DNA from: Actinomycetota bacterium
GTDB taxonomy: Bacteria; Actinomycetota; Acidimicrobiia; Actinomarinales; Actinomarinaceae
Reading direction: 5' to 3'
Assembly: GCA_014239265.1 (NCBI GenBank)
Contig: JAAZZH010000001.1
Coordinates: 171,419 to 213,850 of the forward strand
Length of the DNA: 42,432 bases
How positions within the stretch are numbered: position 1 is the stretch's first letter; the number at the start of each line of letters is the position of its first letter. The translations under genes and the position numbers were made by a program. Below, piece after piece: positions 18,550-20,738 of this stretch. Below the pieces are notes generated by a model. That model saw nothing but the letters and a program-made list of their open reading frames with translations, was not told where the DNA came from and ran no database searches.

Positions 18550-19191
18550 ATGTGTGGACGTTATCACTTGGATGTAAATACTTTATATGAAGAAAATATG
18601 CAAGAAGAAGAAAATTTTAACTATGAAAATAATTTTAACATAACCCCACAATCTAAAGTTCCTCTAGTTATCGATGATAAATTAACAATGGCAATCTGGG
18701 GGTTTTTCCCAGAGTGGTTAAAGAGTCAAAAAAATTCAAAACCACTTTTTAATACTCGTTGGGAAACAATTCAAGAAAAAAGAACTTTTCAAAGTGCGTA
18801 CAAAAAACATCGTTGTCTTGTCCCAATTTCAGGTTGGTATGAATGGAGAAATATTGATAATGAAAAACAACCTTATTATTTCTACAAAGAAAATCAACTT
18901 CTAAAAGCTGCTGGTTTGTATTGGTTAAGATCTAATGGAAATATAGAGTTTTCAATTATTACTAAAGAGGCTTATGGTGATCTTTCTTCTATACACCATA
19001 GAACACCACTTATTCTAGATTCAAGCAAACAAGCTATGTGGATGTCTCAAGTTGACGAGAATTTACTTTATGAAGACATTTCTAATCAAAGTGAAATACC
19101 AATCAAATTCCACAGAGTTAATAAATCTGTTAATAATCCAAAAAATAAAAACTCTTCATTAATAAATGAATACACAGAGGTACCTTTTTAA
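18550..19191 (+). CDS. SRAP domain protein (YedK/HMCES family)
   Basis: SOS-response-associated peptidase-type protein that crosslinks to abasic sites in single-stranded DNA through its N-terminal Cys. The hallmark residues are all present: Cys2 exposed after Met removal (MCGRYHLD), Asn in FNTRWET (about residue 75), Glu in GWYEWRN (about residue 99), and His in IHHRTPLIL (about 157-158). The 213-aa length is typical. ATG directly follows the S51 peptidase stop, and the stop overlaps the next gene (TAATG). No SOS box is seen; expression probably follows the upstream tRNA/peptidase transcript. Confidence 0.93.
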   Translation: MCGRYHLDVNTLYEENMQEEENFNYENNFNITPQSKVPLVIDDKLTMAIWGFFPEWLKSQKNSKPLFNTRWETIQEKRTFQSAYKKHRCLVPISGWYEWRNIDNEKQPYYFYKENQLLKAAGLYWLRSNGNIEFSIITKEAYGDLSSIHHRTPLILDSSKQAMWMSQVDENLLYEDISNQSEIPIKFHRVNKSVNNPKNKNSSLINEYTEVPF

Positions 19192-19394
19192 TGAATTCAC
19201 AATCACCTATATATTCATTTAAATTTACAATCTCTTGGATTGCTATCTATCTAGTCATCGTTTACTTTGTTGGGCTATATCTTAATATTTTTATTTCTCT
19301 GTATGTAGGGTTGTGGATTCTCAACCTTTTAATTGAACTTGCAGAAAGATTTCTATTGAGATTTGGTAAGCGTATCTATACTGTCGAACGTTAG
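19191..19394 (+). CDS. Small two-helix membrane protein
   Basis: 67 aa, unrecognised. Two hydrophobic stretches (about residues 12-33 and 34-50) precede a basic tail (RFLLRFGKRIYTVER), so a hairpin membrane protein with both ends cytoplasmic is likely. The ATG overlaps the SRAP stop (TAATG), strong evidence of real coupled translation. It closes the peptidase-SRAP operon. Confidence 0.65.
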   Translation: MNSQSPIYSFKFTISWIAIYLVIVYFVGLYLNIFISLYVGLWILNLLIELAERFLLRFGKRIYTVER

Positions 19395-19396
19395 CA

Positions 19397-19425
19397 TTTA
19401 CTTAATATATTATTGTTGCTATATT
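19397..19425 (+). promoter_or_regulatory. Promoter of tRNA-Val
   Basis: TTTACT (19397-19402), a 17-bp spacer and TATATT (19420-19425), with the mature tRNA starting 8 bp after the -10. Confidence 0.7.
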
Positions 19426-19433
19426 TGTGAAAA

Positions 19434-19507
19434 GGGAGATTAGCTCAGTCTGGCAGAGCGCTACCTCGACAAGGTAGATGTCACAAGTTCAAATCTTGTA
19501 TCTCCCA
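19434..19507 (+). tRNA. tRNA-Val (GAC)
   Basis: Acceptor GGGAGAT/ATCTCCC, D-arm GCTC/GAGC, anticodon stem CTACC/GGTAG, loop TCGACAA (anticodon GAC), T-arm ACAAG-TTCAAAT-CTTGT, discriminator A, no encoded CCA. Position 33, almost always U, reads C here. Confidence 0.95.
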
Positions 19508-19575
19508 CAAAATATGAAACTATTCCTTAAGAAACTTACTCCTATTTATTTCAGGTACAACCACATTTGGATTAC

Positions 19576-19609
19576 AAAAAGACTGGAGAAATTAATCTGG
19601 TCCTTTTTT
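19576..19609 (+). terminator. Likely intrinsic terminator downstream of tRNA-Val
   Basis: AAAAAGACTGGA pairs with TCTGGTCCTTTTT (two G-U pairs, one bulged C) around an 8-nt loop, running into a T-rich tract. It lies about 70 nt past the tRNA and would give a precursor with a 3' trailer. Confidence 0.6.
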
Positions 19610-19621
19610 ATTTCTTTAGCC

Positions 19622-19686
19622 TTTTATAGTTTCTTAAACAACTATTAAAACAATGAGCTATTTAAGAAATTAGTTGTTTTATAGTT
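19622..19686. repeat. Interleaved inverted repeats in a gene-free stretch
   Basis: TTTCTTAAA (19630-19638) is complementary to TTTAAGAAA (19661-19669), and AAACAACTA (19636-19644) to TAGTTGTTT (19671-19679). The order A-B-A'-B' with shared bases means the two 9-bp pairings compete or form a pseudoknot. The block is bracketed by a direct repeat TTTTATAGTT at 19622-19631 and 19677-19686. No ORF with coding character covers 19508-19835. Confidence 0.5.
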
Positions 19687-19758
19687 AAGTTGACCGTTTA
19701 TTTGGGCAGTATTCAACTCAAATAAGTATGTATAAAGGAATTTACAGTGGTCATTTAG

Positions 19759-19796
19759 AAAAGAGGGGTTTCTCCAGGATGGGAATTCCCTTTTTT
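19759..19796 (+). terminator. Rho-independent terminator closing the non-coding stretch
   Basis: AAAAGAGGG (19759-19767) pairs with CCCTTTTTT (19788-19796), one G-U pair, and the interior is further paired (GGGAATTCCC lies at its 3' side). A T-rich tail follows. No gene ends here, so it may terminate a small RNA from 19508-19758 or act bidirectionally. Confidence 0.6.
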
Positions 19797-19823
19797 CTTT
19801 TATAAGTAAATTATTCCTCAACA

Positions 19824-19829
19824 TAGACT
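19824..19829 (+). promoter_or_regulatory. -10 (TAGACT) of the DUF1295 gene
   Basis: TAGACT 6 nt before ATG 19836, no ribosome site: leaderless pattern. Confidence 0.45.
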
Positions 19830-19835
19830 TCACAC

Positions 19836-20738
19836 ATGACATCAAAAAACATTGGTCACTTACGGCTCATCATTGTCTTTACAGTAATAATTGGCTTTCT
19901 ATCTCTAATTACTCCTGATACAAACTTGAAAATATTAGATATTAATATTCTTCAATTCATCTTATTTTATATCTGGTTAGTACAGATTGTTGCTTTCATA
20001 TTTGCCTTCATCTATCAAACTGAAAAGTATTATGATTTTATAGGAAGTTTAACTTATTCAACTTCAACATTAATTGTCTACTACTCACTTCCAGTTAAAA
20101 CACAGACTGATACTGTTCTTCTTGCCCTTGTATTAATTTGGTCCTTGAGATTAGGACTATTTCTTTTTAGAAGAATACTTGAAGATGGTAAAGATAACCG
20201 TTTCACTAAGCCTAAACAGTCATTTTTACATTTTCTGCAATATTGGACAGGACAAGCAATGTGGGTTTCGTTCACTTGTATTGCTGTTTACGTTGCAATG
20301 ATATCCGAAGAGGAAAACACTCTCACTACAGTTTCTTTATTTGGTTTAATTATCTGGATTTTTGGATTCACAATAGAAGTTATCTCAGATGCTCAAAAAA
20401 GAACTTTTCGTAAAGATCTAAACAATAAAGGAAAATTTATCTCGAATGGTCTGTGGAGTAGAAGTCGACACCCTAATTATTTTGGTGAAATTACACTATG
20501 GGTAGGGGTAGCAGTGATTTCTTTGTCTAGCTTAAATGGTATTGGCTATGTCGCACTTATCTCACCACTGTTTGTATACGCTTTACTTTCAAAAGGAAGT
20601 GGGATACCTCTATTAGAACGAAGTGCTGACAAGAAATGGGGTAGTGAGCCTGAATACCAAGCCTACAAAAACAACACGCCAGTATTATTTCCTAAATTGT
20701 TTAATAATATAGAAAACACCCACAGCAATAGCGATTAG
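19836..20738 (+). CDS. DUF1295 / steroid 5-alpha-reductase-like membrane protein
   Basis: 300 aa with about six to seven hydrophobic segments. The C-terminal signature SRSRHPNYFGEITLWVG (about residues 207-223) is that of DUF1295, a group related to isoprenylcysteine methyltransferases and 3-oxo-5-alpha-steroid reductases that use the C-terminal region for cofactor binding. It is therefore probably an integral-membrane, NADPH- or SAM-dependent lipid-modifying enzyme; the substrate is unknown. The preceding promoter and terminator isolate it as a single gene. Its last 54 nt are overlapped antisense by a 48-aa ORF coupled to the panB-like gene. Confidence 0.88.
   Translation: MTSKNIGHLRLIIVFTVIIGFLSLITPDTNLKILDINILQFILFYIWLVQIVAFIFAFIYQTEKYYDFIGSLTYSTSTLIVYYSLPVKTQTDTVLLALVLIWSLRLGLFLFRRILEDGKDNRFTKPKQSFLHFLQYWTGQAMWVSFTCIAVYVAMISEEENTLTTVSLFGLIIWIFGFTIEVISDAQKRTFRKDLNNKGKFISNGLWSRSRHPNYFGEITLWVGVAVISLSSLNGIGYVALISPLFVYALLSKGSGIPLLERSADKKWGSEPEYQAYKNNTPVLFPKLFNNIENTHSNSD

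Follow-up and report, generated by a model that had tools for sequence, protein, structure and literature searches.

A structured small RNA candidate near tRNA-Val in Candidatus Actinomarina, conserved beside different genes

Small RNAs of the Csr/Rsm systems are free-standing, end at a terminator and display AGGA in hairpin loops, with more than two AGGA motifs. The Yfr1-like sRNAs of marine cyanobacteria are short and lineage-wide, and they join a very conserved short motif to changing stems. Candidatus Actinomarina consists of tiny marine Actinobacteria. Vibrio csrB is described as having been duplicated and moved, its old copy being lost (PMC6262261). 6C RNA (RF01066), a widespread actinobacterial sRNA of ~100 nt, has two stem-loops (PMC4046766); each of them holds about six cytosines. 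ANTAR-target RNAs, common in actinobacteria, consist of two stem-loops with a short linker and are defined by dual hexaloops with A1 and G4 (PMC8164766). In the open-licence literature, as far as its texts were accessible, no account of an Actinomarina sRNA was found; the accessible text of the genus paper (PMC7771536) holds no word beginning 'sRNA', and the legend of its Figure 3 mentions an ncRNA track.

The window, a DNA stretch of 42,432 nucleotides, comes from a host genome of 1.05 Mb that is incomplete (84% complete). Within it, 328 nt (19508-19835) following a tRNA-Val had been singled out by the initial annotation for its length. The genus paper gives a median intergenic distance of 2 bp (PMC7771536), and the stretch therefore does stand out; the tRNA-Val before it is called by ARAGORN. 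The stretch splits in two: a gene for a small protein comes first, and a structured small RNA candidate follows it (Table 1). For the second part, from 19692 to about 19800, the main reading of the sequence, to which we give a probability of about 0.77, is a free-standing small RNA gene that would act in trans, with the downstream genes not being cis targets. We favour a free-standing regulatory RNA because the element is nearly unchanged in relatives and stands beside different genes from genome to genome.

Table 1. Features in and around the 328-nt stretch, in window coordinates
Feature	Position	Strand	Evidence
tRNA-Val (GAC)	19434..19508	+	ARAGORN; Rfam RF00005 65.7 bits
Small ORF, 44 aa (MKLFLKKLTPIYFRYNHIWITKRLEKLIWSFFISLAFYSFLNNY), C-terminal half hydrophobic	19514..19648	+	Homologues, dN/dS
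'tRNA terminator' of the initial annotation	19581..19602	+	Inside small ORF; terminator scan; no structure beyond chance
Interleaved A-B-A'-B' inverted repeats	19630..19679		Present; not conserved in relatives
-10 box TATAGT, 6 nt before predicted start	19680..19685	+	TAnnnT spacing across copies
Candidate small RNA, ~109 nt, predicted start G19692	19692..19800	+	Fold, conservation, covariation, genus-wide family
Helix P1, 19692-19696 with 19748-19752	19692..19752	+	Fold, RNAalifold
Arm P2, 19697-19706 with 19717-19726; window's clade only	19697..19726	+	RNAalifold
Hairpin P3 (19729-19732 with 19743-19746), ten-base loop UAAAGGAAUU	19729..19746	+	Fold
P4 hairpin with intrinsic terminator; T-rich run at 19791-19801	19757..19798	+	Terminator scan, fold
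TAGACT, promoter-like box of DUF1295, 6 nt before ATG (leaderless arrangement)	19824..19829	+	Arrangement also at other genes
DUF1295 protein gene (steroid 5-alpha-reductase-like), next downstream gene	19836..20738	+	Pfam PF06966 E 3.1e-63

The stretch had been described as gene-free. Against this stand the homologues and dN/dS of the 44-aa ORF, which is judged from these comparisons to encode a conserved small, partly hydrophobic protein. Homologues are present in 30 of the 42 genus genomes at E<=0.05 and in 28 at E<=1e-4, and most share W-(I/V)-T-K-R-L around their midpoint; four of the 28 have one stop within the matched stretch. Compared with the nearest relative, dN/dS is 0.068/0.441 (NG86) or 0.083/0.228 (YN00), values that rest on this relative, dS being not computable for two further ones. 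Pfam has no family for the protein, which is of the type missed when annotation uses a length cut-off.

A scan of the + strand of 19400-19900 yielded two terminator-like sites (19581-19602 and 19765-19789), against 0.2 +/- 0.5 in shuffled sequences. The first had been taken for a tRNA terminator and is indeed a scan site, but it lies in the coding sequence of the small ORF, and 19500-19610 folds worse than the mean shuffle (z +1.0, with 174 of 200 shuffles as good). We take P4 to be the real terminator of the two. The initial annotation had also pointed to this second terminator with no gene before it, and comparison with relatives gives strong support to P4 together with the RNA that precedes it.

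The segment 19692-19800 folds at -31.9 kcal/mol compared with -20.6 +/- 3.0 for shuffled sequences (z -3.80, none of 200 as good). Its P3 loop includes GGAAUUUA, the portion common to other clades, and the apical loop of P4, CAGGAT (19775-19780), lies inside the motif TTTCTCCAGGATGGGAA (19769-19785). AGGAU on P4 is present in all 20 copies compared, and AGGAAUU in P3 in 19 of them, the exception being L029 with ATGAAUU. In other clades the RNA takes a short form of ~80 nt, one copy of which gives z -2.42 (5 of 200 shuffles as good); there P1 directly encloses GAGGAAUUUA, with P4 next, and P1 reads AGCUAU/AUAGCU, GACUAU/AUAGUC, GGCUAU/AUAGCU or UGCUAU/AUAGCA. An earlier suggestion of a small RNA within 19610-19800 holds within tighter limits (19692 to ~19800, + strand), for which promoter-like box, terminator, covariation and conservation argue.

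The earlier proposal had leaned on the interleaved inverted repeats (A 19630-19638 with A' 19661-19669; B 19636-19644 with B' 19671-19679) and on the direct repeats TTTTATAGTT that flank them (19622-19631 and 19677-19686). These are present, and such an interleaved set arises in one of 2000 first-order random sequences, for a pattern picked after being seen. They do not serve as support for the sRNA, however, being unconserved and upstream of its predicted start. All four relatives compared lack the interleaved repeats, and identity over 19649-19691 is 81/67/67/44/49% to G040/G057/G045/G039/G002.

Over the core, 19724-19800, identity to the same five genomes is 100/99/99/99/96%, with 73 of 77 positions invariant; it is 97/91/91/91/84% over 19692-19723 and 93/75/74/75/77% for DUF1295. 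Values of 31% for genes upstream of the tRNA in G002 are an alignment artefact of a cassette and were excluded. Low conservation relative to the flanks, together with the lack of a transcript, had been set beforehand as the outcome that would refute a small RNA; for conservation the opposite was found, the RNA core being more conserved than DUF1295.

Covariation was assessed on alignment A3, which holds 18 of the 20 copies (near copies L024 and L034 left out), 15 of them distinct. Among these 15, 98.7% of cells pair. Cells changed on both sides number 14, compared with 4.3 after shuffling (none of 500 as high) and at most 7 when the alignment is slid. Two of the five covariation measures are not above shuffles: the number of pairs in which both sides change (4 versus 2.8, reached by 113 of 500 shuffles) and the number of additional pair types (12 versus 12.2). 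In P1, four of the five compared pairs vary between copies and all five pair in 20 of 20, a comparison that rests on our own placing of the long and short forms. The four that vary always hold standard pairs; position 1 is G-C in 9, A-U in 6, G-U in 4 and U-A in 1, position 4 is C-G in 6 and U-A in 14, and the third pair is C-G in all 20. For P2, RNAalifold on six sequences of the window's clade shows three pairs in which both sides change and three that each fail to form in two sequences; its covariation term is only -0.19.

The cells comprise 240 Watson-Crick pairs, 54 G-U, no A-C and 4 others, and the presence of G-U with no A-C therefore favours the + strand. Comparison of sequences shows the structure, strand and conservation of the predicted RNA. 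Over the whole of 19509-19835, a comparison that also takes in the ORF and the unconserved repeats, the minus strand folds better relative to shuffles (z -3.91, 0 of 100 as good); the plus strand reaches only z -1.49, with 10 of 100 shuffles as good. This better minus-strand fold counts against a + strand RNA.

A DNA search with 19670-19825 over the 42 genus genomes gave matches in 21. For the counts of structure and promoter, its 24 places were reduced to 20 by leaving out L041 (a contig-edge fragment) and L042-L044 (short and chance-like). A covariance model built on 18 copies (R1) also finds 21 of 42 genomes, with G013 in and G014 out relative to the DNA search, and one copy per genome except in G013, where L083 and L084 are the same decayed sequence on two contigs; these two count toward the 21 but were kept out of the structural tallies. 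The element is missing from half of the genomes of the genus, some of them incomplete, which speaks against the main reading. Across the class, R1 matches 21 of 247 genomes and one of 125 genera, under stricter filters by which weak matches may be lost. The element pattern occurs in 18 named records, several of which duplicate contigs of the genus search: 13 titled Ca. Actinomarina sp., one each Ca. Actinomarinales and OCS155, and three with broader names (Acidimicrobiia, Acidimicrobiaceae, Actinomycetota); on this basis we take the genus to be Ca. Actinomarina. With two mismatches allowed, the loop pattern occurs in 26 of 42 genomes. Of ten additional places inspected, nine look coding by eye and one is the decayed G013 copy; those of G021 and the second of G013 were also read, and G013 C19, G043 C3 and G003 C2 were left out. 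Viral carriage was considered, and the viral_contigs set gave no match to the pattern.

From the box before P1 and the terminator at its 3' end, we infer that the element is transcribed, and where the transcript starts and ends. TAnnnT precedes P1 in 19 of 20 copies, at 6 nt in 16 and 7 nt in three, with L036 lacking the last T; the background is 2.5% of window positions for TAnnnT at exactly 6 nt. A sigma-70 consensus scan of 19400-19900, which needs a -35 box, found no + strand promoter, and no -35 box was recognised. The T-run of P4 is strong among members of the window's clade but, judged by eye, weak outside it. RNA polymerase would start at about G19692 from TATAGT and stop at the P4 terminator, near 19798-19801, and the product would be an RNA of ~109 nt (about 80 nt in other clades).

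The terminator might instead close a transcript of tRNA-Val or the small ORF, of which the element would be the 3' end. No other terminator is seen between tRNA-Val, ORF and element in the window, and therefore read-through from tRNA-Val or the ORF may end at the element. As an account of the element itself this is very unlikely, since 14 of the 20 copies have neither the tRNA nor the ORF as an immediate neighbour and yet keep P1 and the -10 box (box in 13 of 14).

The gene following the 20 copies is DUF1295 in six, cytochrome b561 in seven, rmuC in three, an HTH protein in three (one assigned by sequence likeness of the flank) and a phosphonate-binding protein in one. The next gene follows the element and shares its orientation in each of the five contexts, and the motif is 63-85 nt from the start codon in four of them and 189 nt in one, with the HTH gene taken to start at its inner ATG. 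This arrangement is consistent with a cis-acting leader, a riboswitch or attenuator whose terminator switches the downstream gene. We consider such a leader unlikely. The five downstream genes are unrelated, and a riboswitch or leader would have a fixed link to related genes in one transcript. Moreover, the genes examined seem to have promoters of their own: TAnnnT lies 3' of the element and 6-7 nt before the ATG of DUF1295 (TAGACT) and, by eye, of rmuC (TATTCT) and the HTH gene, and the arrangement at DUF1295 is also found at other genes. TATTCT stands 6 nt before the rmuC ATG in all 30 loci read by eye, 25 of which are without the element. The b561 box TGTATTAT, likewise read by eye, is identical in the seven loci with the element and in two without it (G054, G051); the remaining 21 b561 loci without the element have different upstream sequence.

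The element shows traces of movement. G054 and G051 have the b561 site without the element. The rmuC sites of G009, G021 and G013 (L183, L189, L171) carry, by eye, decayed remnants without P1; G021 in addition holds an intact copy at b561. On an rmuC tree of 36 of the 42 genomes (of the 38 with rmuC at E<=1e-10, all but the two most distant), the contexts of the element are spread across the genus. From the remnants, the intact b561 copy of G021 and this spread, we infer that new copies form at other sites and old ones degenerate; G021 is not explained by loss alone. Seven of the 20 intact copies are no more than 2.5 kb from a contig end, against 3.1 expected; assembly breaks in variable islands may be the reason. 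Published island biology includes gene cassettes at tRNAs and a prophage in a tRNA-Val, and is a likely setting for the element's movement.

Change of place between genomes and the excess at contig ends would also suit an operator, a recombination site or a repeat that functions as DNA and not as RNA. We regard this as highly improbable, given the G-U pairs with no A-C, the covariation, the promoter-like box and the terminator, along with a single copy per genome by R1 apart from the decayed pair in G013.

Proximity raises another reading, a type I toxin-antitoxin pair in which the 44-aa hydrophobic protein is the toxin and the RNA its antisense antitoxin. Element and small ORF are 0.15-8.2 kb apart in 16 of the 19 genomes that hold both, their co-occurrence has a Fisher P of 0.0025 (uncorrected for relatedness or completeness), and the window contains one 9-nt complement between them (19583-19591 with 19769-19777). 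However, the ORF is found without a model-found element in nine genomes (eight when G014 is credited with its contig-edge fragment), and by eye the complement is not fully kept in relatives. We find this pairing scarcely credible.

The initial annotation had recognised no known RNA family, and no Rfam 15 family matches the element: at the gathering cut-off, the whole window gives three tRNAs only. Searched permissively, 19400-19900 and four loci taken from the other four contexts yielded, besides tRNA, only matches far below the cut-off. Very probably the family is not yet catalogued. Its resemblances to described systems are partial. Like CsrB/RsmZ, it carries GGA motifs in hairpin loops, but there are only two AGGA motifs; like Yfr1-like sRNAs, it is small and lineage-wide with a conserved motif and changing stems, but motif and lineage are different. 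The appearance of a copy elsewhere and the decay of the old one resemble what has been described for Vibrio csrB (PMC6262261). We reject membership among CsrA sponges because CsrA (PF02599) was found in none of the 42 genus genomes (control matches in 3 of 14 named genomes). Hfq (PF17209), on which an Hfq-dependent sRNA would rely, was likewise found in none of the 42 (control matches in 5 of 14). In contrast to 6C RNA, the element has no C-rich loops, and the RF01066 model matches 0 of 42 genomes, in a search of low sensitivity whose sole control genome scored below the cut-off; membership in that family is rejected. ANTAR-target RNAs (PMC8164766) share the two stem-loops, the short linker and the actinobacterial host. 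The element differs in having no fixed link to a downstream gene, and it was rejected as an ANTAR target since hexaloops with A1 and G4 are absent (the P4 loop is CAGGAU and the P3 loop has ten bases).

How the loops of the free-standing RNA are used, and its action in trans, is our guess. P1 and P4 would present two conserved AGGA motifs that resemble Shine-Dalgarno sequences, AGGAAUU in P3 and CAGGAU on P4. In trans, these motifs might bind an RNA-binding protein or the ribosome, or the RNA might pair to mRNAs. A tentative and rather doubtful extension is a global regulator RNA in a lineage where neither Hfq nor CsrA was found: a decoy that offers two AGGA motifs to a new RNA-binding protein or to the ribosome's anti-Shine-Dalgarno, under selection nearly as strict as that on a tRNA, from a gene that wanders by copying and decay. 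An RNA of ~109 nt kept near letter-for-letter in a Ca. Actinomarina genome must repay its cost, and it offers an sRNA family open to test, from a host in which Hfq, the common chaperone of sRNAs, was not found.

A search of the 42 genomes with CCATCCTGGAGA at one mismatch found no target. The matches listed number at least 191, the genes of the RNA itself among them, compared with 60 for the reversed control. One recurring match, TCATCCTGGAGA, is also present in genomes without the RNA, and therefore no target was drawn from the excess. Antisense pairing to Shine-Dalgarno sites via UUUCUCC may also be considered, but this stretch is largely paired in P4.

Several minor observations concern the surrounding loci. 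In the window's clade the ATG of the small ORF lies 5-7 nt 3' of the tRNA-Val CCCA, and in L009, L011 and L012 DUF1295 starts 6-8 nt 3' of it; cutting at the tRNA 3' end would yield a nearly leaderless mRNA for the small ORF or DUF1295. At rmuC (L170-L199), (T/C)TGTC-N12-TATTCT is strongly conserved before a leaderless-looking ATG, with a spacing that is too short for ordinary -35 and -10 boxes. No integration scar is seen at the window's own tRNA-Val. In G002 (L002/L045, contig C6 8657-10625), an insert of ~1.4 kb separates tRNA-Val from a duplicate of its 3' part, which is a tRNA integration scar; an integrase cassette was considered there and rejected, the 417-aa ORF of the insert having no Pfam match and no integrase being shown. 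Finally, a 67-aa ORF at 19191-19394, with no Pfam family, lies 3' of an SRAP gene, an adjacency that is kept in related loci.
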